A stretch of DNA of 64,000 nucleotides, taken from positions 62,001-126,000 of the IMG/VR virus record IMGVR_UViG_3300024518_000034; one strand, written 5' to 3'. Below the pieces are notes generated by a model, which was not told where the DNA came from, ran no database searches, and saw only the letters and a program-made list of their open reading frames with translations. Source of the DNA: a virus. The position numbers and the translations under genes were made by a program. This document shows, in pieces, positions 1,917 through 53,069 of this stretch (positions are counted from its first letter, which is position 1; each line of letters opens with the position of its first letter).

Positions 1917-2538
1917 AGTAAAATTGCTAGAAAAACAATCGACACATAGAGAAGAGTGGACAAAGGATGATTACGTTGATAGAATACAAGCACAGATGAC
2001 ATCTTCACTGTACTTGATCTGTGTCATGTTCAAAGAACTTAAGGAAAAATTCTTTGAGAGAGAAGATGACGATGGACAGACGTGGACTAAATTTTGCAAA
2101 GATAGAATAGGAATTTCTAGGCATGCTGTTGCTGGTTATTTGAGAATAGGAAGATATGTATTACCAAGGATTTCTATAGATTTAGCAAACAAACTGGGAG
2201 TTGCAAAACTTCTTGTACTTTCCAAGTTAGGAAAGGATGCAGATTGGGATAAAATTCTAAATGAATTGCACGAAGAGGTAGAGTTGAAAACTATAAAACA
2301 TATAGCGGACAAATATGGTGGTGTCGAGAGAGAAGATAGACCAAGACCACTAAAAAAGACTGTCTCAACTTTAAGAAAAAATATTGAAGTTTTAGATGAA
2401 GATTTGAGAGCTTACTTGCCAAATCCTAACGATTTTGAGTCAAAAAAGAAATTCAAGGAAGTAGCAAACCAACTTTATAACCAAATGGATTCGTTGATGA
2501 ATATGATGAGAATGTTAATGAAAGGCGCAGACGAGTAA
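1909..2538 (+). CDS. DUF3102-like helical DNA-binding-type protein, 209 aa
   Basis: The start at 1909 is chosen over an upstream in-frame start because GAAAGGAGAAGG sits just before it. Residues ~45-85 contain the pattern TWTKFCKDRIGISRHAVAGYL, with a helix-turn-helix look, followed by LGVAKLLVLSKLG. This resembles the DUF3102 / ParB-accessory type seen in phages and plasmids. The C-terminal third is a predicted helical, charged region. It overlaps the polymerase start by one base (TAATG), implying translational coupling. A role in replication control or partition is inference; the family call is tentative. Confidence 0.65.
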   Translation: MSKVKLLEKQSTHREEWTKDDYVDRIQAQMTSSLYLICVMFKELKEKFFEREDDDGQTWTKFCKDRIGISRHAVAGYLRIGRYVLPRISIDLANKLGVAKLLVLSKLGKDADWDKILNELHEEVELKTIKHIADKYGGVEREDRPRPLKKTVSTLRKNIEVLDEDLRAYLPNPNDFESKKKFKEVANQLYNQMDSLMNMMRMLMKGADE

Positions 2539-5500
2539 TGAAATATACCCCTCTACATGGACATAGTGACTTTTCAATCTTGGACGCTTGCTCAAATGTA
2601 AAAAGCATTTGCAAACGAGCAGCAGAGATTGGACTAGAGCATATAGCACTAACGGACCATGGAACTATGGCTGGAATCTTTGAGTTTTACAAAGAAGCAA
2701 AGGCTGTAGGAATAAATCCTATTTTGGGAGTAGAGGCGTATATAGTAGAAGATAGATTGCAACTAGGACCAACAGATGAGCAAAAAGAGGGATTGAGCAA
2801 GCCTGAGCGCGATGCTTTAAATAAGAAGCATAGGAAGTATAATCACGTAGGTTTGATAGCTCAGAATGGGACAGGGCTTAAAAATTTATTTCATGTCGTG
2901 TCAGACGCTGCAAGAAATGGAACTTATTATAGACCAAGAACTGATTGGGATTATCTTGCAGAACATTCGGAAGGTGTGATAGCGCTTTCAGGATGCCTAC
3001 AGGGAAAAGCCAATAGGATGATTTTGGATGGAAATCTCGATGGGGCGTTGGCACACTTGAAGCAACTAAAAGACATCTTTGGTAAGAGAGTGGTGGCTGA
3101 ATTGCAAGTCAACGAAGCACCAGAACAAAAGATATGTAATGAAAAAATATACATGCTATCGAAAAAAGTAGGGATGCCGTTGGTAGTAACTAACGATTAT
3201 CACTACGTTTCTCCAGAGAGTGTAGAAGCGCACCGCATGTGTAAGTTCATTGATTACATAAAGGGCAGAGGAAAGAAGGATTTGGAGTTTTGTGGGTTTG
3301 AAGGCTATAGAACTACAGGACACTACGTAGCTTCTTATGATGAGTTGAAAAGTCTGTGGGTAGCAAATCACGGAAACATGACGACTGGAATTTTCGAAAG
3401 CGCATGCAGAAACACTATGAAAATAGCTGAAAGTTGCAGCGTGGACATAGACAATTCTCATAAGTTGGTAAAGTTTCCATTGCAAGAGGGAATGAGTAAG
3501 GAAGAGTACTTGAAGAAAGTGGTCACTCATGGGTGGAACAAGCGCAAACACAAATTTGTTGAAGGAAAAAAAGAAGAGTATACTAAGAGAATACAGAAAG
3601 AAATTAATCTGATTAAGAAGATGGGGTACTTAGACTACTTCTTCATGGTTCAAGACTTTATTCTATGGGCAAAAGGACAAGGGATTCCTATAGGGCCAGG
3701 CAGAGGTTCAGCGGCAGGCTCATTACTGTCCTGGCTACTTGAAATCACTCAAATTGACCCAATCAGATATGGGCTATCTTTTGAGCGTTTTTTGAACCCA
3801 CACCGCAAAAAAATGCCAGATATAGACGTTGATGTATGCAAGCGTCGTAGAGGTGAAGTTCTTCAGTATATGAAAGATAGATGGGGAGAGGAAAATGTTG
3901 CTGCGGTAGCCACATATCACAGATTTACTTCAAACTCTTTGTTTAGGGAAGTGTCAAGAGCGTTGGGATGTGAGTACAATACGTATAATGATATTGCTAA
4001 GAAAATTGACCACACTGATAATTGGGAAAACAACTTAGAGAAGAACAAAGAGTTAAAAAATTATGTAGATCAAAATGAAGATATAAATCTTTACATGGAT
4101 GAGTTAGATGGAAATATAAAAAACTTCGGAACTCATGCAGCAGCTATCATTATTACAAATGGAAACATTAGTGACTATTTGCCGCTACGAAGAACTACAG
4201 ATACGGCTGGCAATGTAAATATAATCACAGAAATTGAAAAAGATTTACTGGAGGCGTTTGGATATTTAAAGAAGGATATCTTGGGATTGAAAACTCTGAC
4301 GATAATTGCAGATACTGCAAAAGCGGCAGGAATGACATATGGAGATTTAGAGGACATTCCAGTTGACGATCCAGAAGTTTATAAAATGTTTAACGAAGGA
4401 GACACAGTAGGAGTATTTCAATTTCATGGTAGCGGTATGACAGATTTGGCAGTCGATATAGGCGTTGAGAACATGGAAGACTTGTCAGCCTGTAACACTA
4501 TGTATCGTCCAGCCGTTTTGAAAGCTGGAATCGATAAGAGTTTTATTAGAAGGCGAAGAGGAGATGAAGAAGTAACGTTTTTACATCCCAAACTAAAGGA
4601 TGTACTTGAACCAACAGAGGGGCTCATTATATATCAGGAACAGATAATCCACATTATGATGAAATTGGGATTAGATGAAGGCGAGGCTGATTTGATGAGA
4701 AATGACATGGAGAAGGTTTATAAGGGGGCGAAACCACAATCTGTGTTAGACGATTGGATAGAGAAAGCTAAAAATAGAGGGTTTGGTGAATTTGATGAAG
4801 ATGAAGCTGAAGATGTCATCGACCAAGTGATGGCGCAAATTGGTTATCTGTTCAATAAAGCTCACAGTGTGTCTTATAGTTTAATTGGATATATATGTCA
4901 GTGGCTTAAAGTTTACTATCCTTATGAATTTTTAACATCGTGCTTGAACAATGAGGAGAAGTTAGAAAAAATTGAAGAATATTTGGCGTACTTCAATAAC
5001 ACATATGAGGTTGATATTAAAATTGGAGATCTAAATAATTTTAGTGTAGATTTTTGTGTAGAAGATGAAGAAACAATTAAAGTTGGGCTAGAAAACACTA
5101 AAGGTCTTAGTAAGAAAGTGTTAGATATGGTAAACGATAATAGGCCGTATGATTCTATTATGGACTTTTTCTATAGTGACATTGATTGGCGTGTTTTAAA
5201 TAAAAGAAAAGTTCAGATAATGGCCGAGTTGGGACTGTTTGACGGACTGCCTATATATGAAGATGGACCGAAGATTGAACATGCAAATCAAATGAAAGGA
5301 TTTTATAACGGATTAAGAACATATGGTTCTGGTGAAACAAATCACTATGTAACACAAAAGCAAGATAGAGAAGTTTGGGGTAAGGTTTATGGAGATGTTG
5401 AATTGTACGACAGTCCTTCATTCGCTGACTTGGCTCAAAAGGAAGTTGAATATTTTGGTTTTCACATTGTGTACGATCCGCTGAGCTACATTAGAAATAA

Positions 5501-5795
5501 TTTTGATTTCAAGAAGATAGGAATGGTAATGCCAGGTACTTTGGCGGTGGGTGGAGTAGTTAATGGGATTAAGCTTCACATAGACAAGAAGGGAAATGAA
5601 ATGGCATTTGTGTCATTGAAGACTTTAGAGGACTTCAAAGACATTGTTATCTTTGCTAGCCAATGGGGACATTATAGTAAGAAGTTGAAGATTGGCTCTT
5701 GTGGTATATTTTTCTTAGCTATGTCGGATAGAAAGAGTTATATAGTAAGGAGATATGAAAAGGTAGAGTTACCTCACGGATATGATGGAGAATAA
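2538..5795 (+). CDS. dnaE: DNA polymerase III alpha subunit, DnaE type
   Basis: This is the catalytic subunit of a bacterial-type replicase. The N-terminal PHP domain is recognised by HGHSDFSILDA and LTDHGTM. The polymerase core carries PIGPGRGSAAGSLLSW near residue 390, then the catalytic PDIDVD with D428 and D430, and the third aspartate in KKDILGLKTL (D580). Further matches are GVFQFHGSGM, LIIYQEQ and the FNKAHSVSYSLIGY finger motif. At 1085 residues it is slightly shorter than cellular DnaE (~1160), so the C-terminal tau/clamp-binding tail may be reduced. No proofreading exonuclease is fused. A DnaQ-like exonuclease is encoded ~38 kb away (43976-44833). A self-encoded PolIII is a trait of some large phages rather than T4 or T7 types. 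Confidence 0.95.
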   Translation: MKYTPLHGHSDFSILDACSNVKSICKRAAEIGLEHIALTDHGTMAGIFEFYKEAKAVGINPILGVEAYIVEDRLQLGPTDEQKEGLSKPERDALNKKHRKYNHVGLIAQNGTGLKNLFHVVSDAARNGTYYRPRTDWDYLAEHSEGVIALSGCLQGKANRMILDGNLDGALAHLKQLKDIFGKRVVAELQVNEAPEQKICNEKIYMLSKKVGMPLVVTNDYHYVSPESVEAHRMCKFIDYIKGRGKKDLEFCGFEGYRTTGHYVASYDELKSLWVANHGNMTTGIFESACRNTMKIAESCSVDIDNSHKLVKFPLQEGMSKEEYLKKVVTHGWNKRKHKFVEGKKEEYTKRIQKEINLIKKMGYLDYFFMVQDFILWAKGQGIPIGPGRGSAAGSLLSWLLEITQIDPIRYGLSFERFLNPHRKKMPDIDVDVCKRRRGEVLQYMKDRWGEENVAAVATYHRFTSNSLFREVSRALGCEYNTYNDIAKKIDHTDNWENNLEKNKELKNYVDQNEDINLYMDELDGNIKNFGTHAAAIIITNGNISDYLPLRRTTDTAGNVNIITEIEKDLLEAFGYLKKDILGLKTLTIIADTAKAAGMTYGDLEDIPVDDPEVYKMFNEGDTVGVFQFHGSGMTDLAVDIGVENMEDLSACNTMYRPAVLKAGIDKSFIRRRRGDEEVTFLHPKLKDVLEPTEGLIIYQEQIIHIMMKLGLDEGEADLMRNDMEKVYKGAKPQSVLDDWIEKAKNRGFGEFDEDEAEDVIDQVMAQIGYLFNKAHSVSYSLIGYICQWLKVYYPYEFLTSCLNNEEKLEKIEEYLAYFNNTYEVDIKIGDLNNFSVDFCVEDEETIKVGLENTKGLSKKVLDMVNDNRPYDSIMDFFYSDIDWRVLNKRKVQIMAELGLFDGLPIYEDGPKIEHANQMKGFYNGLRTYGSGETNHYVTQKQDREVWGKVYGDVELYDSPSFADLAQKEVEYFGFHIVYDPLSYIRNNFDFKKIGMVMPGTLAVGGVVNGIKLHIDKKGNEMAFVSLKTLEDFKDIVIFASQWGHYSKKLKIGSCGIFFLAMSDRKSYIVRRYEKVELPHGYDGE

Positions 5796-6706: not shown

Positions 6707-7309
6707 ATGGCAAGAATTATAACAGTAGGTGGTCAAGGTGGAAGCTACGAGGCAGTTCCAGAAGATTATTACATGGCAGAAGTTGGCAAGATTGAATTTG
6801 TAGCTGATCAGAAGAATCACTTTACGGGAGAGCTTGAAGACAGATGGAAGCTTTTCTTCAAAGTAACTGAAGGCGAACATGCTGGTAAGACGTTCACAGG
6901 TTTGGCAAAGAATAGTACTCACCCAAAGAGTAAGTTAAGAGATTGGCTCAAAGCATTCTTTGGTCCACTGAAAGAGGGAGATCCAATTGATATTGATGAC
7001 ATTGTAGGTCGTCCATGTATGATTTATATTTCTCATGGAAGTTCTTTGAGAGACGATGGACAGCCGTGGTGTAACGTAAGTAAGGTTCAGAAAAAGCCAA
7101 ATAGTGGTGTTGAACTTATGAGTCCGTTGTCAGAATCAGAAGTTAGTGATCGTGATGGTGATGAAGCAGATGAGACAGAAGAAGCTTCAGAACCAGTGGT
7201 AAAAAAAACTAAAAAAACAATGGTAGGTAAGAAGAAGACTACAAAGAAAAAGCCGAAAGTTACTGTCCCAGAAGGAGAAGAGGAAGAGGAACTTGACGTA
7301 GAATGGTAA
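6707..7309 (+). CDS. Probable single-stranded DNA-binding protein
   Basis: Residues ~1-115 have a beta-rich pattern with alternating aromatics (YEAVPEDYYMAEVGKIE, WKLFFKVTEGEHAGKTFTGL, PCMIYISHG) that fits the OB-fold DUF669/SSB-like proteins of phages. The second half is a low-complexity linker that is first acidic, then Lys-rich (KKTKKT, KKKTTKKKPK). It ends in an acidic tip EEEEELDVEW, much as SSB proteins end in an acidic partner-binding tail. It sits directly before and overlaps recA by seven bases, the classic position for a recombination partner. The family call is by pattern and context only. Confidence 0.6.
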   Translation: MARIITVGGQGGSYEAVPEDYYMAEVGKIEFVADQKNHFTGELEDRWKLFFKVTEGEHAGKTFTGLAKNSTHPKSKLRDWLKAFFGPLKEGDPIDIDDIVGRPCMIYISHGSSLRDDGQPWCNVSKVQKKPNSGVELMSPLSESEVSDRDGDEADETEEASEPVVKKTKKTMVGKKKTTKKKPKVTVPEGEEEEELDVEW

Positions 7310-8346
7310 AGGGAACTTTGAAAAGAAAAAAGAAAACATCAGAAGATGAATTGCCAGGAGATGACTATGAAGCTTTTATGGCTTGTCTGAAACCGCAAGT
7401 AAAATCTGGCTTAATTATGAGCTTAGGAGGGGAAAATTCTAAGCTAAAGGTAGATGCAATTTCTACGGGGATTGGCTCTCTAGACAAAGCATTGGGGGTC
7501 GGAGGGTTGCCGAGGGGAAGAATTGTAGAATTGTTTGGCCCAGAGAGTGGGGGAAAAACTACCTTAGCGCTGCAATGCATTGCCGCCTGCCAAAAGGCAG
7601 GCGGTATTGTAGTGTTTCTTGATGCTGAACATTCATTAGACCCAGTATGGGCAGGAGTGCTTGGTGTAGATACTGAAAAGCTAGCAATAGCACAACCGGA
7701 CTATGCCGAGCAGGCTTATGAGTTAGTTAATACCTTACTTGATAGTCCTAGGCCTCCCGATATGATAGTGCTAGACTCTATTGCAGCTATGCCTACAAAG
7801 AAAGAAATTGAAGGTGACGTAGAGGATCTACAAAAGCAGATAGGTTTGCAAGCTAGAGTGAACACGGGAAACTTGCGTAAACTTATGCCAAAACTATCTA
7901 GGGCTGGCACTGTATTTGTTATTATAAATCAGGTGAGAGAAAAGTTTGGTGGTGGATGGTCAGGTTATGGTCCAAACGAAACTACGCCAGGTGGAAGAGC
8001 GATGAGGCATGCTTACTCTGTTAGAATGTCAGTTAGAAAAGGTGAGATGATAAAAGAAGGACCAGAGTTTATCGGTAATAGAGTAAAGGTTAGAATTGCA
8101 AAAAATAAAGTAGCTGCACCATTTGGGAAAACTGAATTTCCTATATATTATGCAGAAGGAATAGATATAGTTTCCGATGTATTTATGAACGCAGTTGAAA
8201 AGGGAGTGGTTCTAAAAAAAGGTGCCTGGTATTTTTATGGCGAAGAGAAGTATCAAGGAAGGAAGGGACTGATTGAGGCATTAAAGAGTGATCAAGAGTT
8301 GTATCAGTCTTTGGCGGATGAACTCGATGCAGTAGAAGAAGAATAG
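7303..8346 (+). CDS. recA: RecA-family recombinase
   Basis: This is a strand-exchange ATPase. The Walker A motif is GPESGGKTT (residues 79-87), the strand leading to the catalytic Glu is VVFLDAEHSLDP, Walker B is MIVLDSIAAM, and the L2/ATP-cap region shows FVIINQVREKFG followed by TPGGRAMRHAYSVR. The 347-residue length is normal for RecA. The C-terminus is acidic (DELDAVEEE), as in bacterial RecA. The start overlaps the SSB-like gene by seven bases. The neighbours SbcD/gp47, RuvC and SbcC/gp46 complete a phage recombination set. It resembles bacterial RecA more than T4 UvsX by eye. The gene contains a GC-rich perfect hairpin (7581-7606) just after the Walker A codons. Confidence 0.95.
   Translation: MVKGTLKRKKKTSEDELPGDDYEAFMACLKPQVKSGLIMSLGGENSKLKVDAISTGIGSLDKALGVGGLPRGRIVELFGPESGGKTTLALQCIAACQKAGGIVVFLDAEHSLDPVWAGVLGVDTEKLAIAQPDYAEQAYELVNTLLDSPRPPDMIVLDSIAAMPTKKEIEGDVEDLQKQIGLQARVNTGNLRKLMPKLSRAGTVFVIINQVREKFGGGWSGYGPNETTPGGRAMRHAYSVRMSVRKGEMIKEGPEFIGNRVKVRIAKNKVAAPFGKTEFPIYYAEGIDIVSDVFMNAVEKGVVLKKGAWYFYGEEKYQGRKGLIEALKSDQELYQSLADELDAVEEE
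7581..7606 (+). repeat. Perfect GC-rich inverted repeat inside recA
   Basis: CCGCCTGCC (7583-7591), an AAAA loop, and GGCAGGCGG (7596-7604) pair perfectly. One G:T and one T:A pair extend the stem to 11. The GC content contrasts with the AT-rich gene around it. There is no T-tract, so it is not an intrinsic terminator. Confidence 0.7.
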
Positions 8347-44833: not shown

Positions 44834-45549
44834 AAAAAACATTTGTATTAATATTATTAATTTTTACCCTAACAGGGTGTGCAAGTTCTCTTTTTAAAAG
44901 TTTTCCTCTTCAAACTGAGACACCTATTGTTAAAAAAGACTATGTTAAGTTTGTAAAAGTTGGCGATATTCAAATCGCTGATGTTGGGAAAACTAAAACT
45001 GAGACGAACCTCAAACAACAACTGGCTACAGCCTTAAAAAGATATCCTAGGATTACTACAACATATCTGACGGATGTGTGGTTGGTTGAGTCGGCAGATA
45101 AGAGTGGAGATGTATTAGGTAAGTATGTATATAGAGAAAAAGCTATCTACATATCTATAAATGGATACAGTGATAGAGAAATAATTGATACGTTCTATCA
45201 TGAATTAGGTCATGCAATTCATTTAAGTATGACTGTTAAAGCAGAAGACGCATGGTATGCTTTATTTTTAAAGAGATTGAAAGTTTTGGGATATAAGAAG
45301 TCTTTAGGAAAAGATTGGCGAACTGTAAAAGATATAAAAGGGTTTCCAAGCTATTATAGTTTAAAGAGTTTTTGGGAATATTTTGCTGAACATTTCAGAG
45401 TAAGCTCTATGAGATCTGAACATCACAAGAAAATGTTTAAACCAGAACATAAGTTACTTTTGAAACATAAACTATTACCAGTTAAGAAAATTAAAAAAAT
45501 AAAAAATGAGAAGACAAAGCGTAAAAAGAGTTATTGCAGAGCAGCCTAA
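44821..45549 (+). CDS. Lipoprotein with zinc-metallopeptidase motif (HExxH)
   Basis: ATG 44821 begins a signal peptide (KKTFVLILLIFTLTGC) with lipobox LTGC at Cys20. The mature protein has YHELGHAIHL (H127-E-L-G-H131), a zincin active site, and a downstream EYFAEHFRVSS that could supply the third ligand (Glu). Length is 242 residues. The C-terminus is strongly basic. It would act in the periplasm or at the host envelope. The start overlaps the exonuclease end by 13 bases. Peptidase activity is predicted from the motif only. Confidence 0.72.
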   Translation: MAAIKKTFVLILLIFTLTGCASSLFKSFPLQTETPIVKKDYVKFVKVGDIQIADVGKTKTETNLKQQLATALKRYPRITTTYLTDVWLVESADKSGDVLGKYVYREKAIYISINGYSDREIIDTFYHELGHAIHLSMTVKAEDAWYALFLKRLKVLGYKKSLGKDWRTVKDIKGFPSYYSLKSFWEYFAEHFRVSSMRSEHHKKMFKPEHKLLLKHKLLPVKKIKKIKNEKTKRKKSYCRAA

Positions 45550-46762
45550 GGGTCATATTCACTACAACCCTAGGCATGGATCAGTTCCTAGAAAAACTAA
45601 TACTGATGAAGATCAGGAAGTAGTAGAGATGGGGTCTAGAGAGACAGGTATGGGCTCTGAGACTAATAATCAAAGTAGTGAAAATAGAAATACAGGTTTT
45701 CCCTCTTCTTCGAAAAGTGATAGGTCCGTAAAGACGCACGGACATAATAATCCTAAAGTGGACAGTCGCCCCGTCGAAACTTCAAATGAAAAAGGCTCAT
45801 CGACTAGTCAGAGACAGTTGGAGGGGGCAAAAGGCCCTCAGTCGTCAACGAGAGATTGGGATTGGTTTATATATGTTCCAAACAATCATAGCAGAGAATG
45901 TCCAAAATTTTCGTGGATAAATAATCAATGTGAGTGTCCGCCAGGATATCTTGAAGATATGTTTGAAAAAATGCAGCAATGGGAAGAAGGTGGAATGAAA
46001 GGTCCAGACCCTAGGGGTATTATAGGATCTAAAAGAGAAGCTGGAATAATTTGGGTAGAGAATCCAAAAATGCCAGACGGTGGATATTGGGCACACGACC
46101 CAAGTCAAAAAACTGATCCAAATTTTAAACAAGAAAAGGCTGTCACAATTGAGCCACATCCTGGTCTAGAAGGAATTAGAGAACATGAGAGTGAATTTCC
46201 TGGGTATGTTAAAAAAGATACTCCTTTAGAATATAGTGATCTATTAAATAGATTACAGGGGGGAGAAGATATACCATTAAAACAGGAAGCCCTTCATCTT
46301 TGTATAGATGAGAGATTAAGAGGTAACGTCAATTCTATAGTTGAATCATTTGATGATTTAAACTGGGATGATATTGATTCTGTGTCTTATCAACCGATGG
46401 CTGCGGCTGAATCAATTGAAGATTGGCCAACTACGTCAAAAGATGGAATAATGATATACCATGCAGACACCCCATCGAGGCAAGCTCAAGGATTACAGTA
46501 TGTAGAGGAAAATGATTTCCCTAAGAATGCTGTCATGTTGTTCAAAAATGCTTCTGGACCTTTCCATATGCATAACTGCAGATTCCCTATTGATATTATA
46601 TTTACTGATGACGATTTCAGAGTGTTAGCGATTCATAACATGATTCCTGAAGGTGGATATACATATTCGCCTATGGGGACAAAACACGCAGTTGAAACAC
46701 ATCCTGATTGGGCTGAAAATAAGGGAATTAGCGAAGGTGATATCTTATTTAAAGATGAATAA
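45506..46762 (+). CDS. Protein with low-complexity N-terminus and C-terminal DUF192-like domain
   Basis: The first ~130 residues are Ser/Asn/Gly-rich and disordered, in the same style as the giant protein at 35645. WFIYVPNNHSRECPKFSWINNQCECP (around 115-140) may be a small Cys-containing module. The last ~100 residues read as DUF192: MIYHADTPSRQAQGLQYVEEN, MLFKNASGPFHMHNCRFPIDIIFTD, and KHAVETHPDWAENKGISEGD. These match the family's aaxRxxGL, F.M....P.D..F and V.E...G...GD positions. DUF192 proteins are small beta proteins of unknown role, usually secreted. It overlaps the lipoprotein gene by 44 bases. Confidence 0.7.
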   Translation: MRRQSVKRVIAEQPKGHIHYNPRHGSVPRKTNTDEDQEVVEMGSRETGMGSETNNQSSENRNTGFPSSSKSDRSVKTHGHNNPKVDSRPVETSNEKGSSTSQRQLEGAKGPQSSTRDWDWFIYVPNNHSRECPKFSWINNQCECPPGYLEDMFEKMQQWEEGGMKGPDPRGIIGSKREAGIIWVENPKMPDGGYWAHDPSQKTDPNFKQEKAVTIEPHPGLEGIREHESEFPGYVKKDTPLEYSDLLNRLQGGEDIPLKQEALHLCIDERLRGNVNSIVESFDDLNWDDIDSVSYQPMAAAESIEDWPTTSKDGIMIYHADTPSRQAQGLQYVEENDFPKNAVMLFKNASGPFHMHNCRFPIDIIFTDDDFRVLAIHNMIPEGGYTYSPMGTKHAVETHPDWAENKGISEGDILFKDE

Positions 46763-46978: not shown

Positions 46979-47052
46979 GCCTCCGTAACTCAATTAGGTA
47001 GAGTACCCGCCTTTTAAGCGGCACAGTCTTGGTTCGATTCCAAGCGGAGGTA
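46979..47052 (+). tRNA. tRNA-Lys(TTT)
   Basis: Acceptor GCCTCCG/CGGAGGT, T arm with loop TTCGATT, and anticodon loop CTTTTAA on a CCGC/GCGG stem give anticodon TTT. CCA is not encoded. First gene after the tRNA-array promoter. Confidence 0.88.
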
Positions 47053-47074
47053 TAAGAAAAGGGAGGGTAGTAAT

Positions 47075-47455
47075 TTGGCAAAGCAAAAATATAGGTTGAC
47101 ACCACCAACAATTCATCGTAAGATTAGAGACGAGAAGAGAACGGTGGCGTCAGAGAAGTATGGCAAGAAGACTAAGTATCGTATTGGTTTTGTACAAAGA
47201 GAAACAGTAGCAGGATTAGTTAAGCATATTTATATTGATCCTCGCCCAGTAAGAGATGAACCTGGAGTTTTCACAAGTACAGAAGCTTACATTACTCAAA
47301 GTAATCATTTGGATACTAAGTTTAGTGATGTAACTAAAACACCAACTGGTAAGGTTTTCTTCAGATGGATCGATAGGCAGACGTTAAGATCTTTAAGAAG
47401 AAAGATGACTTGGGCCGGTATAAAATTAGTAAAAAAGCAAACAGTAACAGTTTAA
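47075..47455 (+). CDS. Hypothetical basic protein, 126 aa
   Basis: Start is TTG 47075, eight bases after GGGAGG; no ATG exists in frame nearby. The protein is basic with beta character (YRIGFVQRETVAGLVKHIYIDPRPV; VFFRWIDRQTLRSLRRK). It might be a small nucleic-acid-binding or internal virion protein. No family is recognised. It lies between two tRNA-Lys genes. Confidence 0.65.
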   Translation: MAKQKYRLTPPTIHRKIRDEKRTVASEKYGKKTKYRIGFVQRETVAGLVKHIYIDPRPVRDEPGVFTSTEAYITQSNHLDTKFSDVTKTPTGKVFFRWIDRQTLRSLRRKMTWAGIKLVKKQTVTV

Positions 47456-47661
47456 TATAACGTGCAGCGCACAGGTTGCGGGCTAATTGGGAGTCTAGTG
47501 GCAGATGCAGAAGCGGTAAACCCAATGGATCTGAAACTACAAGTACACGTTAAATATTACCGAGCGGTAAAAAGGAGTAGCAAAAGCGGCTGAAGTCGGT
47601 ATAATATTACCGAGCGGTAAAATTAGTCGCTTATCAAGACAGCCTGGAAAGACAGGCAACT
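47456..47661 (+). other. Structured non-coding segment between tRNAs, with two 19-bp repeats
   Basis: No ORF or complete tRNA fits here. The 19-base sequence AATATTACCGAGCGGTAAA occurs at 47553-47571 and again at 47603-47621, exactly 50 bases apart; each contains TTACC/GGTAA. Around the second copy, TCGGTA/TACCGA and AAGCGGCT/AGTCGCTT form nested stems. GCCTG/CAGGC around GAAAGA follows at 47642-47658. Upstream, AACGTG (47459-47464) and CACGTT (47546-47551) bracket a segment that has an inner ATTGGG/CCCAAT stem. This looks like a structured RNA, or processing hairpins for the tRNA transcript. Confidence 0.5.
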
Positions 47662-47734
47662 GGGAACGTAACTTAATTGGCAAAGCACCTGACTCTTAAT
47701 CAGAGAGATGGAGGTTCAAGTCCTCCCGTTCCTA
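47662..47734 (+). tRNA. tRNA-Lys(CTT)
   Basis: Acceptor GGGAACG/CGTTCCT, T arm GGAGG/CCTCC with loop TTCAAGT, and anticodon loop CTCTTAA give CTT. CCA not encoded. It is a second lysine acceptor beside tRNA-Lys(TTT). Confidence 0.85.
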
Positions 47735-47747
47735 TTAGAAACAAAAT

Positions 47748-47820
47748 GCCCTGCTTGCTGGATTGCAGACTAGGGACTTCTAATCCTTAAGACCATGTTC
47801 GATTCATGGGTGGGGTGCCA
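47748..47820 (+). tRNA. tRNA-Arg(TCT)
   Basis: Acceptor GCCCTGC/GTGGGGT with wobble pairs, T arm CCATG/CATGG with loop TTCGATT, anticodon stem AGGGA/TCCTT with loop CTTCTAA (TCT), discriminator G, encoded CCA. It reads AGA, the dominant arginine codon of the phage genes in this window. The D arm is short. Confidence 0.8.
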
Positions 47821-47933
47821 GATATGAAAAGCACATTGGAAAGAATTAACGTAAAGAAACTTTTAGAGTTTTGCAATAAGTTATTTGGGCCAAAGGTTGC
47901 AAAAGAAATGGAAGCTTTGAATAAGAAAAAGAT

Positions 47934-48008
47934 GGAGAGGAAGTCAAATGGATAGACGCTGTTCTGATACGACAGTTTCAGCAGGTTCGATTCCTGCCCT
48001 CTCTACCA
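47934..48008 (+). tRNA. tRNA-Ile(GAT)
   Basis: Acceptor GGAGAGG/CCTCTCT, D stem GTC/GAC, anticodon stem CTGTT/GACAG with loop CTGATAC (GAT), T arm GCAGG/CCTGC with TTCGATT, encoded CCA. Confidence 0.87.
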
Positions 48009-48066
48009 TAATTGTGTATAGAATATAACTAAAATACACTATAGTACTTATAATAGGGTGAAGAAA

Positions 48067-48303
48067 ATGAGTAGGTCATATAGAAAGACTCCAATTTGTG
48101 GAAACACAAAAGCGGAATCTGAAAAAGAAGATAAAAAGATTGCAAATAGAAGTTTTAGAAGAAAAACTAAAATGCAATTAATTAACTCAGATGAGGAACT
48201 TCTCTTTAACATAAGACAAGTTTGTGATGGACGAGGATATTATTCCAAGGACGGCAAACAGTGGATTGACAAAGAGGAACATCCTGATATAATGAGGAAG
48301 TAG
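48067..48303 (+). CDS. Small conserved phage protein (MSRSYRKTPI family), 78 aa
   Basis: The N-terminus MSRSYRKTPICGNTKAESEK and the following KKIANRSFRRKTK match a basic small protein that recurs, with unknown role, in many large phages. ATG 48067 starts exactly at the conserved motif; GTG 48058 is an alternative nine bases upstream. The C-terminal half ends in YYSKDGKQWIDKEEHP. It lies between tRNA-Ile and the tRNA-Leu(CAA) candidate. Confidence 0.72.
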   Translation: MSRSYRKTPICGNTKAESEKEDKKIANRSFRRKTKMQLINSDEELLFNIRQVCDGRGYYSKDGKQWIDKEEHPDIMRK

Positions 48304-48310
48304 TAAAGAA

Positions 48311-48386
48311 GGCGGTATAGCCCAACGGCAGAGGCAGCAGGTTCAAATTCTGTACAGTCTAGGTTCGAATCCTAGTATCGCTACCA
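48311..48386 (+). tRNA. tRNA with leucine anticodon CAA and a short variable loop
   Basis: Acceptor GGCGGTA/TATCGCT, D arm with GCC/GGC, anticodon stem GCAGG/TCTGT with loop TTCAAAT (CAA), a five-base variable loop ACAGT, T arm CTAGG/CCTAG with TTCGAAT, A discriminator, encoded CCA. Bacterial tRNA-Leu normally has a long class II variable arm, which is absent here. Its D and T arms closely resemble the TAA-anticodon tRNA at 48787. Confidence 0.72.
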
Positions 48387-48477
48387 AGATTCGCAAAGGG
48401 ACTCCCCGATGATGGAGATAATGTTTCATTTTTAAAATGATAGAAGTAAATTAATTAGAAGTAAAAAGTTATAACTC

Positions 48478-48503
48478 GCGGCTAAGTTTGCAAGCTTGGC
48501 CGC
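48478..48503 (+). repeat. Near-perfect 26-bp palindrome between tRNAs
   Basis: From GCGGC to GGCCGC the sequence folds as an 11-bp stem (two G:T pairs) with a TGCA loop. No T-tract follows; the mature tRNA-Tyr begins six bases later. It may be an RNA-processing signal or a protein-binding site. The preceding ~90 bases (48387-48477) show no gene. Confidence 0.6.
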
Positions 48504-48508
48504 ACCAA

Positions 48509-48591
48509 CCAGAGACTAGGCATCGGTGAGCCCAGCGGTCTGTAAAACCGCCGTGAAAACTGTGGGTGTTCGAATCACCCTCTCTGGACCA
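48509..48591 (+). tRNA. tRNA-Tyr(GTA)
   Basis: Perfect acceptor CCAGAGA/TCTCTGG, anticodon stem GCGGT/ACCGC with loop CTGTAAA (GTA), extended variable region as expected of bacterial tRNA-Tyr, T arm GGGTG/CACCC, encoded CCA. Confidence 0.92.
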
Positions 48592-48666
48592 TTATTACAT
48601 GTGATGTATATCGACAGGTTTGTGAGGACGACACCTGGCTTAATCAAAAAAATCATCCTTATTTAT

Positions 48667-48741
48667 GGGCCTATCATCTAAAGGTTAAGATACCGGACTG
48701 TCGATCCGGCGATTGGGGTTCGATTCCCCATAGGCTCGCCA
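48667..48741 (+). tRNA. tRNA-Asp(GTC)
   Basis: Acceptor GGGCCTA/TAGGCTC, anticodon stem CCGGA/TCCGG with loop CTGTCGA (GTC), T arm TGGGG/CCCCA with TTCGATT, G discriminator, encoded CCA. The 75-base gap before it (48592-48666) holds only a CAGGT/ACCTG hairpin. An ACAGG/CCTGT hairpin follows the tRNA. Confidence 0.92.
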
Positions 48742-48786
48742 GACAGGTTTTTCGGTTGTTCCTGTATAAATAAAACTCCGATTTAT

Positions 48787-48863
48787 GTCCCACTAGCCCA
48801 ACTGGCAGAGGTAAGCGGCTTAAACCCGTAACAGTCTAGGTTCGAATCCTAGGTGGGATACCA
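48787..48863 (+). tRNA. tRNA with leucine anticodon TAA and a short variable loop
   Basis: Acceptor GTCCCAC/GTGGGAT, D arm GCC/GGT, anticodon stem GCGG/CCGT with loop CTTAAAC (TAA), variable AACAGT, T arm CTAGG/CCTAG with TTCGAAT, A discriminator, encoded CCA. Like the CAA tRNA at 48311 it lacks a class II variable arm, and the two share D- and T-arm sequence, so they look like paralogues. Confidence 0.72.
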
Positions 48864-48915
48864 GCAAAATTTAAACGGCTTAACAATATGTACAACTTGA
48901 AGGGGGTGTCAGAAA

Positions 48916-49887
48916 ATGAAGTATAAACTGATGAATAGGAGGAACCGAGTGTACCAAAAACAGCTAGATTTAACTTTATCTGGTACTGGCCCTGTAAGAT
49001 TTCCAGCGTGGGTTGGCGTTCTAAGATATATAGAAGAAAGAGGATACCATATACGTAGACTTGCCGGTACATCGGGTGGCGCATTAGTTGGCGGTTTATA
49101 CGCGGCTGGGATGTCAGTAGACGACTTGGAAAGTGTTCTACTTAAAACAGATTATTCGGATTTCGCTAGGACTAGTTGGTGGAGAGTAGCAAAAGCTATT
49201 GCTTGGCCAAAAGCTTTTGGTGGCGGCTATATGAATAACGGGTATAAGTTAGAAAAGTTTCTACATGGTCTTATTGGAAAGAAATCTTTTAAACACGCAA
49301 AAGGATTACATATATTTACTACAGATATGTGTAATGGCGTATCTAAGATTTTTAATTGGAAAGATGACTATCATTATTCAATAGCTAAGGCTATTCGAGC
49401 AAGTATTTCTTTACCTATCATCTGGAATGGTGTACCATATAAGTACAAAAAGGGACACAGAGTGAAGGGGATAAAGAGAAGAAGAACTGTTTTGATGGAT
49501 GGCGGTTTAAGAAACAATTTTCCAATTGATTACTTTGAACCAACAGATTTGGATGTAATAAGTGGAAAGAAAGTCCCACTTGTTGGGTTTACAATTGAGC
49601 ATGATTTTTGTACAATTAAAGAACAGTATTCGTTTAAGGATATTGGTGGATCAGTTATTTCAAATATGATCGGAGCAGCAGATCGAAAATATGAGGAAGA
49701 CAGTAAAGGAAATTACATAATGTTGACTCATGGCGATCTGGATGATGGAAACCCTTACGAGTTTGATATAAATAATAGCGTAAAGGCAAAGTGGATTGAA
49801 GCAGGGTATAAGGTAGCAAGAGATAACTGGGGCGATTTAATTAATACCTCAGAAAAAGAGGTTGACAAACCTGTTGCTCAGAGATAA
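48916..49887 (+). CDS. Patatin-like phospholipase
   Basis: An acyl hydrolase with a Ser-Asp dyad. The oxyanion-hole region is LTLSGTGPVRFPAWVGVL, the nucleophile elbow is LAGTSGGALVGGLYAAGM (GxSGG), and the catalytic Asp is VLMDGGLRNNFP (DGG/A). Length 323 aa covers a full patatin domain. GGGGG lies upstream of ATG 48916. It could attack host membrane lipids at lysis or entry; phage patatins are known but uncommon. The oxyanion loop GTGPVR departs from the usual GGGxxG. It is the largest protein gene within the tRNA array. Confidence 0.85.
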   Translation: MKYKLMNRRNRVYQKQLDLTLSGTGPVRFPAWVGVLRYIEERGYHIRRLAGTSGGALVGGLYAAGMSVDDLESVLLKTDYSDFARTSWWRVAKAIAWPKAFGGGYMNNGYKLEKFLHGLIGKKSFKHAKGLHIFTTDMCNGVSKIFNWKDDYHYSIAKAIRASISLPIIWNGVPYKYKKGHRVKGIKRRRTVLMDGGLRNNFPIDYFEPTDLDVISGKKVPLVGFTIEHDFCTIKEQYSFKDIGGSVISNMIGAADRKYEEDSKGNYIMLTHGDLDDGNPYEFDINNSVKAKWIEAGYKVARDNWGDLINTSEKEVDKPVAQR

Positions 49888-49954
49888 CATAGTACTAGAG
49901 GTTAAAATTTAAGGGAAAATTTGGTTTGCTTTTTAGCAGAAAGGAAGTTTAGTT

Positions 49955-50548
49955 ATGACAGAAATGGAATTGTTTGTAAGAAGTTTGCTTCATCATGGTG
50001 CTGATTTCATGGTTGGTATGAAGGGGCAGGATTCGAAGCAGTTGGCGGTAAAGATTGGTACGATTGCTGCGGTTTTGGTAGGTATTTATTTGAGTAAGAA
50101 AGTTTGGGGCGGATATCGTCGTAACTTTAGCTTTTCTAAGAAACTGGTTTACGTTGGATCGAAGAAGTTGGCAGTTGAAGGCGGTTGGGGCGGAATGCTC
50201 TTGCTTCCAACAGCAGTCGTAGAAACTGTTTTGGTTCCGCTGTATCTCCTTCTAGGTTGCTTCTCGCCTCGTAGCGATGAAGAAAAGCAGAAGATGCTAA
50301 ATCAGGATAAGGATGTTGTTAAGACTCTTGATCGCCACAGCGGTCTTCAGGAAAATCTAAACGAACGTCTTATGGAGTCTGAAGATAAGGTTGCAGATCT
50401 GGAAGCACACATTAAGAGATTGACAGATAGTGTGGGCAAAGTTCTTTCAGAAGTAAAGAAGAACAGACAGGACGCTCCAACTAGACGTATCGCAAGACCA
50501 GCAGCAAAGCAGTATAGCGATTATCAGTACGCTGATAACGATATGTAA
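49955..50548 (+). CDS. Membrane protein with C-terminal coiled coil, 197 aa
   Basis: Two hydrophobic spans are seen: KIGTIAAVLVGIYLSKKVW (residues ~33-51) and MLLLPTAVVETVLVPLYLLLG (~80-100). A coiled coil follows (QENLNERLMESEDKVADLEAHIKRL) and the tail is basic then Tyr-rich. Codons favour CGT/CGC arginine and GTT valine, unlike the AGA-rich neighbours, which may mean high expression or a different origin. GAAAGGAAG precedes the ATG. The 67-base gap before it contains no feature beyond this site. No family recognised. Confidence 0.65.
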   Translation: MTEMELFVRSLLHHGADFMVGMKGQDSKQLAVKIGTIAAVLVGIYLSKKVWGGYRRNFSFSKKLVYVGSKKLAVEGGWGGMLLLPTAVVETVLVPLYLLLGCFSPRSDEEKQKMLNQDKDVVKTLDRHSGLQENLNERLMESEDKVADLEAHIKRLTDSVGKVLSEVKKNRQDAPTRRIARPAAKQYSDYQYADNDM

Positions 50549-50556
50549 GAAACAAA

Positions 50557-50576
50557 TAGCCTAAGAAATTAGGCTA
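50557..50576 (+). terminator. Hairpin before tRNA-Glu; weak terminator or processing signal
   Basis: TAGCCTAA/TTAGGCTA with a GAAA tetraloop, directly after the membrane-protein stop and five bases before tRNA-Glu. Only TCTT follows, so transcription probably continues into the tRNA. Confidence 0.5.
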
Positions 50577-50581
50577 TCTTA

Positions 50582-50654
50582 GGCCCTGTAGTTTACTTGG
50601 TAAGAACGCCAGGCTTTCACCCTGGAAGATCGGGTTCGAATCCCGGCAGGGTCA
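50582..50654 (+). tRNA. tRNA-Glu(TTC)
   Basis: Acceptor GGCCCTG/CAGGGTC, anticodon stem CCAGG/CCTGG with loop CTTTCAC (TTC), T arm TCGGG/CCCGG with TTCGAAT. CCA is not encoded. Confidence 0.9.
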
Positions 50655-50685
50655 TTATTTTTTAAACATTGGCAGAGGGTATAAA

Positions 50686-51129
50686 ATGAAAACTTGTATT
50701 ATTATTGCTGGACTACCAGGAAGTGGTAAAAGTAGTCTAGCAAGAATTTTAGCTAGTATGTTTAGTTTCAACACTAAAATAATTTGTACTGATGATTATT
50801 TTGTAAATGAAGAAACTGGAGAATATGAATTCGATGTTAAGGATTTACATCGAAACCACAATAAAGCATTTAATGACTTTAAGAAGGCGGTACTTGGAAG
50901 AGGTATTGAGTATCATACAGTTATAGTATCAAACACTTGTACCCAAACTTGGGAATACAAGAGATACGAAGATTTTGCAAAAGAAAATGGATTTATAGTA
51001 TTTCCTGTTATTGTAAGAAAGAACAAAGAACAAGTTTATAAGAATTTGCATGGTGTTCCAGATGAAGTGGTGGATAAAATGCAAGCAAGACTTGTTCAAG
51101 ATTTCGTAACACCGAAATTGAAGAGATAA
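50686..51129 (+). CDS. P-loop kinase (AAA_33 / N4BP2-like polynucleotide-kinase type)
   Basis: CIIIAGLPGSGKSSLARIL is Walker A (GLPGSGKSS). ICTDDYFVNEETGEYEFDVKDLHRNHNKAF is the region typical of N4BP2/PNK-like AAA_33 kinases, and HTVIVSNTCTQTWEYKRYEDFAKENGF continues the family pattern. Length 147 aa. It would phosphorylate a nucleic acid 5' end or a small molecule. Lying in a tRNA array, a tRNA-repair role like T4 Pnkp is an attractive but unproven idea. Confidence 0.78.
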   Translation: MKTCIIIAGLPGSGKSSLARILASMFSFNTKIICTDDYFVNEETGEYEFDVKDLHRNHNKAFNDFKKAVLGRGIEYHTVIVSNTCTQTWEYKRYEDFAKENGFIVFPVIVRKNKEQVYKNLHGVPDEVVDKMQARLVQDFVTPKLKR

Positions 51130-51132
51130 ACT

Positions 51133-51199
51133 GGGCGACCCCATGGTGGGACAGTGGACTTACATTCCATTAGATCAGGTTCGATTCCTGGGTGGCCTA
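51133..51199 (+). tRNA. Atypical tRNA-Val(TAC) candidate
   Basis: Anticodon stem GTGGA/TCCAT with loop CTTACAT (TAC) and T arm TCAGG/CCTGG with TTCGATT are good. The acceptor GGGCGAC/GTGGCCT has a G:G mismatch, position 8 is C instead of T, and the D arm is shrunk to CCCA/TGGG with a three-base loop, giving only 67 bases. It may be degenerate or need repair. CCA not encoded. Confidence 0.55.
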
Positions 51200-51355
51200 T
51201 TACCAGAGGTATAAACGTAAACGTAACCAGCATGAGTTTGACGAGTGAAGGCGTTAACCGTAAAGCGGCGAACCGGTACGAAGTCGCACGCCACAACGGG
51301 GCAGGGAATAGTGTGAAATATGTGTGCGTGACGATCAGGAGAGACTGATAGGTTT
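51200..51355 (+). other. GC-richer non-coding segment with possible 38-codon ORF
   Basis: The 156 bases between two tRNAs are richer in G+C than their surroundings. GGCGT (51250-51254) and ACGCC (51288-51292) can pair, and smaller stems (CCG/CGG) lie inside. An ATG at 51232 opens a 38-codon frame ending at 51348 without a clear ribosome binding site. Either a structured RNA or a tiny gene is possible; I cannot decide. Confidence 0.35.
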
Positions 51356-51431
51356 GCCCCTGTAGCATAATTGGCAGTGCAGCACTTTTGTAATGTGCAG
51401 ATTCCGGGTTCGAATCCTGGCAGGGGCTCCA
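51356..51431 (+). tRNA. tRNA-Thr(TGT)
   Basis: Perfect acceptor GCCCCTG/CAGGGGC, anticodon stem GCACT/TGTGC (one mismatch) with loop TTTGTAA (TGT), T arm with TTCGAAT, encoded CCA with T discriminator. Confidence 0.9.
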
Positions 51432-51446
51432 GAGGGGGGCAAAAAA

Positions 51447-51836
51447 ATGAAAGTAAAGGTGTATTTAAAAAATAATGATCCTGAACTAGAAGAGGTTCTA
51501 GAGATGGAAAACATTAGACCGGAAAGCGTAATAGGCTTTAAAAGTATGCAAATCTTTGCTGCAACCGGAATGATGTCATTTACAACGCTAGATGGGACAA
51601 GGTGGGAAATCATTCCGAGAGAAATGATTGAAAGAATAACTTGTATACTGGATGACGATATCTCAGACAACACCGGAATGCCTTCCATTGAAGAAATTAG
51701 TGATGATGACATGGAAGAGTTTGAAATTGATATACCGGACGTTGACATTATAGATGGACAAGAAGAGATGGATTTTCTGCTAGGTGGAGATCTAGAGATT
51801 CAAACAGAAGAGGGCGATGAAGAAACTGCAGAGTAA
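51447..51836 (+). CDS. Hypothetical acidic protein, 129 aa
   Basis: ATG 51447 follows GAGGGGGG. The first ~65 residues are beta-rich (KVKVYLKNNDPELEEVLEMENI; MSFTTLDGTRWEIIPREMIERI). The rest is strongly acidic (DDDMEEFEIDIPDVDIIDGQEEMDF). It overlaps the lipoprotein gene by 20 bases. Family not recognised. Confidence 0.65.
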   Translation: MKVKVYLKNNDPELEEVLEMENIRPESVIGFKSMQIFAATGMMSFTTLDGTRWEIIPREMIERITCILDDDISDNTGMPSIEEISDDDMEEFEIDIPDVDIIDGQEEMDFLLGGDLEIQTEEGDEETAE

Positions 51837-52071
51837 GATTTTTATCATAGTACTGATTTTAATGCTTGCATTTGGATCAGGATGTGGTAGTATAGCATAT
51901 AGGCACCATAATAAGGGTGCAGATATACCATACGGCGGAACGATGTTAATTATTTATTGGTCGGCACTATCATTAAATCCATTTATTTTAATAGATTTGC
52001 CGGGTAGTTTTCTTGTAGACACAATATTACTTCCAAGAGACATTATATTAATGAATAGGGGAAAAAGATGA
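51817..52071 (+). CDS. YceK/YidQ-like lipoprotein
   Basis: The signal peptide KKLQSKIFIIVLILMLAFGSGC ends in lipobox GSGC. The mature part GSIAYRHHNKGADIPYGGT and IDLPGSFLVDTILLPRDI is the layout of YceK/YidQ (DUF1375) lipoproteins, including the D-P-G-S..D-T...P.D end. Length 84 aa fits the family. It would sit in an envelope membrane of a diderm host. It overlaps the next gene by four bases. Role in infection unknown; a superinfection-exclusion factor is possible. Confidence 0.72.
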   Translation: MKKLQSKIFIIVLILMLAFGSGCGSIAYRHHNKGADIPYGGTMLIIYWSALSLNPFILIDLPGSFLVDTILLPRDIILMNRGKR

Positions 52072-52412
52072 ATAAAGAAGTAGCTAAGAAATTTGGGAAA
52101 AGTGGATTGTTTTGCGGATTGGTGCTTTTGGCTGGTACTATAGTTTATGAAGTCGGTGATCGCATTCATCATCATGTGACTAGAACTGTGCAGGAAAAAG
52201 AAGCAGACATGAGAGCAGATTATCGCATCGTATATGATGGTGAGTATTATGCTGCACAAAAATATAGATCTGCTGAAGGGTGGTATTTTATAAATCTTTG
52301 GAATGGTGAAAACCACCAGAAATTTTATAAAGATAAGGTGAAAGTAAAAAAGGCTTTAGAAGTTCGTTTGCACGAACTGCATCCAGATATTTTCTTTAAG
52401 CCCGTTAAGTAG
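52068..52412 (+). CDS. Membrane-anchored hypothetical protein, 114 aa
   Basis: Residues ~13-29 (LFCGLVLLAGTIVYEVG) form a signal anchor. The soluble part is rich in Tyr, His and charged residues (DYRIVYDGEYYAAQKYRSAEGWYFINLW), suggesting a small beta-sandwich. Coupled to the YceK-like lipoprotein by a four-base overlap, so the two may act together at the envelope. Confidence 0.65.
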   Translation: MNKEVAKKFGKSGLFCGLVLLAGTIVYEVGDRIHHHVTRTVQEKEADMRADYRIVYDGEYYAAQKYRSAEGWYFINLWNGENHQKFYKDKVKVKKALEVRLHELHPDIFFKPVK

Positions 52413-52418
52413 CAAGAG

Positions 52419-52491
52419 TGTGGAGTGATGTAATTTGGTAGCATACGGCGCTGTTAACGCCTCTGTCGGGGTTCAAGTCCCTGCTCCACAG
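52419..52491 (+). tRNA. tRNA-Asn(GTT)
   Basis: Perfect acceptor TGTGGAG/CTCCACA, anticodon stem GGCG/CGCC with loop CTGTTAA (GTT), T arm CGGGG/CCCTG with TTCAAGT. CCA not encoded. Confidence 0.9.
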
Positions 52492-52558
52492 TTAGACTGA
52501 ATGTAATAAGAGTTACAATAACTGATGATGTTTGTAATGGTACGGACTCAGATAAGTA

Positions 52559-52578
52559 CCCACCTTCGGGTGTTTTTT
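52559..52578 (+). terminator. Intrinsic terminator
   Basis: CACC-TTCG-GGTG hairpin (52561-52572) followed by six T residues, ending the tRNA-Asn transcript. Confidence 0.65.
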
Positions 52579-52605
52579 AAATATTCTGAAAGATTTATGT
52601 TTTTT

Positions 52606-52693
52606 GAAGTATAGTATGTAGTACCTACTAACTTTTATTGACGTATGTCAGTCATTTCGCAGATATGATGTTAGTGGTACAATGTGTACTAAC
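52606..52693 (+). promoter_or_regulatory. Candidate promoter/operator region with inverted repeats
   Basis: GTACCTACTAAC (52621-52632) and GTTAGTGGTAC (52670-52680) are near-perfect inverted copies 37 bases apart. A third half-site GTACTAAC lies at 52686-52693. Between them are TGACGTATGTCA (a gapped palindrome, 52639-52650) and a TATGAT -10-like box (52664-52669). Upstream, TATAGT (52610-52615) could be another -10. The arrangement suggests a regulated promoter for the gene at 52713. Confidence 0.5.
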
Positions 52694-52712
52694 AGTAGAT
52701 GGTTAGGAAATA

Positions 52713-52991
52713 ATGCTGGAAGATTTAAGAACAAAGAAGAAAGTAAAATTAAAGAAATTGAAAAAGAGATATCAGAATTGCAACATTGTAGAAAAGATAT
52801 GGCGTAGAAGATGGTATCTTTTAATACCGTACCACACTTTTAGGTTTTATTATTATACGAGGAAGAAGAGTAGTTTTAGGATGTCTTTGAGGCATTGTTA
52901 TAAACTTGCAGTTGGGATGGCTCAATATAAAATGAACTGGATGTATGGTTGGAAAGAAGTAAAAGAGAGAATAGAAAATAAGTTAAAATAA
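52713..52991 (+). CDS. Hypothetical strongly basic protein, 92 aa
   Basis: It is rich in Lys, Arg, Tyr and Trp (KKKVKLKKLKKRYQ; IWRRRWYLLIPYHTFRFYYY), with a helical second half. It could be a small nucleic-acid-binding or membrane-active protein. It follows the inverted-repeat promoter region and ends one base before tRNA-Pro. No family recognised. Confidence 0.6.
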   Translation: MLEDLRTKKKVKLKKLKKRYQNCNIVEKIWRRRWYLLIPYHTFRFYYYTRKKSSFRMSLRHCYKLAVGMAQYKMNWMYGWKEVKERIENKLK

Positions 52992-52992
52992 A

Positions 52993-53069
52993 CTACCTAT
53001 AGGCTAATTTGGCAAGTCGCTCGGTTTGGGTCCGAGAGAGTGGAGGTTCAAATCCTCCTAGGTAGACCA
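52993..53069 (+). tRNA. tRNA-Pro(TGG)
   Basis: Perfect acceptor CTACCTA/TAGGTAG, anticodon stem CTCGG/CCGAG with loop TTTGGGT (TGG), T arm GGAGG/CCTCC with TTCAAAT, A discriminator, encoded CCA. Last tRNA of the array. Confidence 0.93.

Follow-up and report, generated by a model that had tools for sequence, protein, structure and literature searches.

The window analysed here is a stretch of 64,000 bases of virus DNA (bases 62001-126000 of a 192,308-base IMG/VR virus record) with a G+C content of 38.6%. It carries two tRNA genes with the leucine anticodons CAA and UAA and no long variable arm. The question raised by this pair is whether the tRNAs bring leucine to UUG and UUA codons, bring another amino acid and so change the meaning of these codons in phage proteins, or have lost or changed their role in translation. 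An earlier note on this DNA concluded that neither is a standard leucine tRNA, on the ground that bacterial tRNA-Leu is class II and that leucyl-tRNA synthetase (LeuRS) relies on the long arm. The evidence below indicates that they are very probably functional leucine tRNAs without the long arm, which would be charged by the host LeuRS and would serve UUA and UUG.

Structure of the two tRNA genes

All positions are those of the window.

46979..53069, + strand: tRNA gene region with 12 tRNA genes, including both leucine genes (ARAGORN)
48311..48386, + strand: tRNA-Leu(CAA), 76 nt, short variable loop, CCA encoded (ARAGORN; Rfam RF00005, 51.6 bits; cloverleaf; full leucine core)
48320..48335, + strand: D arm GCCCAACGGCAGAGGC of the CAA gene, 3-bp stem, A14, A15, G18G19, A20a, C13.A22 unpaired (leucine-type core)
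48344..48346, + strand: anticodon CAA, reads UUG (ARAGORN)
48354..48358, + strand: variable loop ACAGT of the CAA gene, Levitt pair A15-U48 (cloverleaf parse)
48383..48383, + strand: discriminator A73 of the CAA gene (cloverleaf parse)
48787..48863, + strand: tRNA-Leu(UAA), 77 nt, short variable loop, CCA encoded (ARAGORN; Rfam RF00005, 43.6 bits; cloverleaf; full leucine core)
48796..48812, + strand: D arm GCCCAACTGGCAGAGGT of the UAA gene, 3-bp stem, same leucine-type core as the CAA gene (cloverleaf parse, core count)
48821..48823, + strand: anticodon UAA, reads UUA, plus UUG by wobble (ARAGORN)
48831..48835, + strand: variable loop ACAGT of the UAA gene, U48 paired with A15 (cloverleaf parse)
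48860..48860, + strand: discriminator A73 of the UAA gene (cloverleaf parse)

The 12 genes of the region are all the tRNA genes that ARAGORN predicts in the window. Covariance scoring places both leucine genes beyond chance, since they lie above the Rfam tRNA cut-off of 29 (E 3.6e-8 for the CAA gene, 5.8e-6 for the UAA gene). The acceptor stem forms 7/7 pairs in both, with G1.U72 as the closing pair, and is followed by T8 and A9. The T arm, CTAGGTTCGAATCCTAG, is identical in the two genes. Apart from an A27.A43 mismatch in the UAA gene, the stems pair throughout. This mismatch, the lower Rfam score of the same gene and the G1.U72 pair of both could be taken as marks of decayed genes without function. 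Such decay is very improbable: the other stems pair, the core is intact, CCA is encoded, both scores exceed the cut-off, and the same type turns up in phages whose hosts span many phyla (see below).

The variable loops are 5 nt long in both genes, short of the about 10 nt or more of a class II arm. Neither cloverleaf parsing nor ViennaRNA gave a long-arm alternative fold for either tRNA, and a 5-nt variable region is too short for pairing. The description given in the earlier note (leucine anticodons without a class II arm, a class I fold with a short loop, A discriminators, shared arm sequence) was thus confirmed, down to the gene ends, which ARAGORN placed at the same bases. For the CAA transcript the predicted minimum free energy (MFE) is -20.4, against -18.2 for the canonical cloverleaf (ViennaRNA), and the MFE structure is not a cloverleaf. 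An MFE slightly better than that of the cloverleaf is common in models of unmodified tRNAs. The tRNA-Tyr (48509-48591) and tRNA-Ser of the same phage keep the long variable arm.

Leucine identity elements

The leucine identity set of E. coli comprises A73, the A15-U48 Levitt pair, G18G19, A20a and tertiary pairs between the D and T loops, and explicitly excludes the anticodon and the long arm (PMC9976931). Arm size is the major identity element for serine and of low importance for leucine (PMC9976931), and a minimal tRNA-Leu without the long arm remains active (Larkin 2002, as cited in PMC9976931). In published E. coli work the arm is dispensable for leucylation (PMC9976931).

Both window tRNAs have A14, A15-U48, G18G19, A20a, an unpaired 13.22 and A73. 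The specificity of this core was counted after leaving out every tRNA that matches the search pattern of the next section, which fixes A14, A15 and A20a. With these set aside, 54/61 short phage tRNA-Leu and 23/25 long ones have the full core, compared with 4/623 other class I tRNAs and 0/77 tRNA-Ser and tRNA-Tyr. Positions 13 and 22 pair in 515/633 other class I tRNAs, as opposed to 3/187 short and 0/25 long tRNA-Leu. On these counts and the unpaired 13.22, the short tRNAs combine a leucine-type core with a class I-sized body.

The earlier note had also raised the possibility of charging by another synthetase, so that UUA and UUG would stand for another amino acid in phage proteins. The missing class II arm points that way, as does a naive Bayes isotype classifier over all positions, trained on long-armed tRNA-Leu only and with anticodon and variable arm hidden. 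It ranked Gln first and Leu second for the CAA gene and put Arg, Lys or Gln first for the UAA gene; the same classifier called Leu for 120/322 short leucine tRNAs. Whole-body similarity is thus no evidence for leucine, and the identity core alone is. Recoding is further opposed by the requirements of the other synthetases: Arg needs C35, Lys U35 and Phe G34, all absent here, and SerRS needs the long arm (PMC9976931). With the evidence from anticodons, bacterial genomes and codon alignment given below, recoding becomes extremely improbable. The identity rules of E. coli serve as the reference in this comparison and may fail in the real host of the phage. With tRNAscan isotype models, the Leu UAG, CAA and UAA tRNAs of Shigella phage Sf14, which may be of the short or the long form, fit best as Leu (PMC12482277).

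Distribution in phages and viral contigs

Viral contigs and reference phage loci were scanned with the pattern CCCAANNGGCAGAGG + 26-56 bases + TTCGA, which is blind to the anticodon and permits long arms. The D loop of the CAA gene is one base shorter than the pattern, and D-arm loop length was let vary in counting. The window genes belong to the short type, defined by a CCCAA..GGCAGAGG-type D arm with a variable loop of 4-6 nt. The resulting phage tRNA samples are pattern-selected, not random.

At least 142 distinct tRNAs with a D arm of this type were found. Among the matches listed, 141/142 have leucine anticodons (UAA 57, CAA 34, UAG 31, GAG 11, CAG 6, AAG 2), so that all six are represented. 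Of the features left free by the pattern, U48 is present in 140/142 of these matches, A73 in 141/142 and a variable loop of 4-6 nt in 142/142; none of the 142 has a long arm, although the pattern permits one. A family charged by another synthetase would not be expected to cover exactly the leucine codons, which makes a synthetase other than LeuRS unlikely. Phages with this type infect hosts from many phyla.

The one call other than leucine, at locus L126, is an anticodon TTA (stop UAA) by ARAGORN in a tRNA with the same D-arm type. Probably the true anticodon is UAA and the call is shifted by one base; otherwise the tRNA is a candidate ochre suppressor.

In the same phage loci the long arm is kept in 52/53 tRNA-Ser and 25/25 tRNA-Tyr, and most tRNA-Leu are without it. 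Loss in leucine tRNAs only fits the tolerance of each synthetase, as serine needs the arm and leucine hardly does (PMC9976931). Seven short-loop tRNA-Leu (loci L026, L077, L091, L112, L115, L133 and L376) have a class-II-like D arm, which suggests that the variable arm was lost more than once, independently.

Such repeated losses, and the frequency of short arms in phage tRNA-Leu, lend something to a further explanation. The arm might have been lost because a host nuclease or modifying toxin recognises long-armed tRNA-Leu, with the phage tRNAs acting as decoys or replacing or shielding the host pool. Phage tRNAs have been proposed to evade tRNA-targeting defences, through changes in the anticodon loop (PMC10264068). 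However, no nuclease that requires the arm is known here, a pure decoy would need neither an intact identity core nor encoded CCA nor leucine anticodons, and the short type is a housekeeping tRNA in Actinobacteria (next section), where defence evasion is not an obvious reason for it. Decoys, one of the options raised by the earlier note, need not be invoked, and this explanation is judged unlikely.

Occurrence in bacteria

In GTDB genomes the same pattern gave 120/120 tRNAs with leucine anticodons and loops of 4-6 nt, mostly as lone genes in Actinobacteria. Exact matches occur in 48/296 genomes of a sample from the phylum of Mycobacterium asiaticum, a lower bound for the type, and in 2/194 genomes of a cyanobacterial sample.

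Complete tRNA sets were collected for M. asiaticum (46 tRNAs) and Corynebacterium pelargi (44 tRNAs). In both, the single UAA gene and the single CAA gene for tRNA-Leu are short, and the CAG, GAG and UAG genes are long-armed. UUA and UUG mean leucine in Mycobacterium and Corynebacterium. As the short tRNAs are the only readers of these codons in the two genomes, they must be substrates of a bacterial LeuRS. Bacterial tRNA-Leu is therefore not universally class II, as the earlier note had supposed. Its statement that the window pair are not standard leucine tRNAs is right for their shape and fails otherwise, the genomes of at least two Actinobacteria having the short type as their standard reader of UUA and UUG.

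In M. smegmatis, phage Gaia integrates at the tRNA-Leu-CAA gene, leaves it interrupted and brings a tRNA-Leu-CAA of its own, which takes its place in lysogens (PMC10865867). Gaia was considered as a case in which an essential host tRNA is replaced by a short one from a phage and was ruled out, because the Gaia copy (locus L390, KJ567043 39120-39202) is long-armed with a variable region of 15 nt. Mycobacteriophage stretches that match the short gene of M. asiaticum align over its bases 21-74 with no space for a long arm. Together with the long-armed Gaia copy, these armless matches suggest, indirectly, that long and short forms of tRNA-Leu may be interchangeable.

Short tRNA-Leu were also seen on bacterial contigs with 12-34 tRNA genes in the stretch examined (L145, L199, L202 and L233), which come from Asanoa, an actinomycete MAG, the cyanobacterium Cylindrospermum and others. 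These arrays are probably acquired.

Codon meaning and supply

The RecA and DnaE proteins of the phage were aligned with 17 homologous loci from E. coli, other bacteria and phages. Leucine makes up 40% of the residues aligned with UUA, 45% with UUG and 39% with CUN, followed by Ile, Val, Met and Ala. Reassignment of UUA and UUG was rejected on this test, as they align with leucine as often as CUN does. The two proteins are encoded at 2538-5795 (a DnaE-like DNA polymerase III alpha) and 7303-8346 (RecA); the DnaE shares about 30-32% identity with the phage proteins that it matches best.

UUG (31% of leucine codons) and UUA (29%) are the two that the phage uses most, and the two tRNAs thus match its commonest leucine codons. 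No class Ia synthetase of the PF00133 family was found in the phage record. Charging must then depend on the host, and this absence likewise speaks against recoding.

Taken with the identity core, the leucine-only anticodons and the sole decoders of Actinobacteria, the alignment turns the earlier suggestion of recoding down and strongly supports its alternative, that LeuRS would charge the tRNAs despite the missing arm. The host LeuRS would recognise both tRNAs, if they are expressed, through A73, A14, A15-U48 and D-loop contacts at G18G19 and A20a; the long arm, dispensable for E. coli LeuRS, would have been lost. The CAA tRNA would then read UUG, and the UAA tRNA UUA and UUG, as leucine, and the phage may benefit from a supply for the two leucine codons most used in its AT-rich genome.

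Comparison with known systems

The closest bacterial counterparts are the chromosomal tRNA-Leu(UAA) and tRNA-Leu(CAA) of M. asiaticum and C. pelargi, which share with the window genes the 5-nt loop, the D arm (of the type GCCCAA..GGCAGAGGC), A15-U48, A73 and the anticodons. The actinobacterial copies are chromosomal, mostly have G1-C72 and often lack an encoded CCA, whereas both phage genes close the acceptor stem with G1.U72 and encode CCA. G1.U72 is also found in the Lys, Arg and Ile tRNAs of the same phage, and in 84/186 short phage tRNA-Leu (about 45%) vs 14% of other class I phage tRNAs.

Isolated phages with short tRNA-Leu include Erwinia phiEa21-4, Streptomyces Karp, Myxococcus Mx1, Lactobacillus LP65, Pseudomonas phiPsa374 and cyanophage P-RSM6. 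Their genes are 73-78 nt long, are annotated as tRNA-Leu and have the D-arm type, short loop and A73 of the window genes; they differ in including UAG and AAG anticodons, and identity over the gene reaches about 83%. In Felix O1, three tRNA-Leu of 78-79 nt are annotated, lengths which indicate that short forms have long been present in reference phage genomes.

The tRNA-Leu of T4 has A15-U48 and A73 like the window pair but is long-armed, and the class II tRNA-Leu of E. coli likewise combines the identity set A15-U48, G18G19, A20a and A73 with a long arm. Most long-armed tRNA-Leu of phages have G12-C23 and G9, in contrast to C12-G23 and A9 in the window pair. Human mitochondrial tRNA-Leu(UUR) is charged by LeuRS without a long arm, with A73 and A14 as main determinants (PMC9976931); it is organellar, of a separate lineage and with a separate LeuRS. 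Another tRNA with a leucine anticodon and no long arm has a low score as Leu and looks much like a tRNA-Met whose anticodon has changed, unlike the window tRNAs with their leucine core.

In mycobacteria, PMC6582537 describes a horizontally acquired tRNA cluster with a short-loop tRNA-Leu(UAG) beside a normal one; this case differs from the window in its anticodon and in lying in a bacterial genome. That remark, one sentence, is the only explicit one on short-loop tRNA-Leu found in the open-access literature. Short tRNA-Leu are widespread in phages and little described, and the window pair are new members of this class. On this evidence the two are ordinary leucine tRNAs of a seldom described form, and they leave the genetic code unchanged.

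In phages or Actinobacteria, a short loop with a leucine anticodon is accordingly no sign that the code has changed, which removes a false alarm for recoding, and annotation rules that place every tRNA-Leu in class II should allow for an exception. The phage genes also form a large natural set of armless tRNA-Leu that agrees with the in vitro result for E. coli LeuRS, in phages whose Ser and Tyr tRNAs keep their arms. A bolder and rather doubtful reading is that arm loss was adaptive. Phages and some Actinobacteria would share one armless class of tRNA-Leu with a rebuilt core (C12-G23, C13.A22, A9), which would escape host factors (nucleases, modification, regulation) acting on long-armed tRNA-Leu while LeuRS still charges it, and which would have moved between phages and bacteria.

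Neighbouring sequence

An ORF of 418 aa with a C-terminal DUF192 domain (45506-46762) lies just ahead of the tRNA region. Between two tRNA genes, the sequence TATTACCGAGCGGTAAAA occurs twice, about 50 bases apart (47540-47630). The ORF directly after tRNA-Leu(UAA), at 48916-49887, has a weak match to patatin-like phospholipase models.
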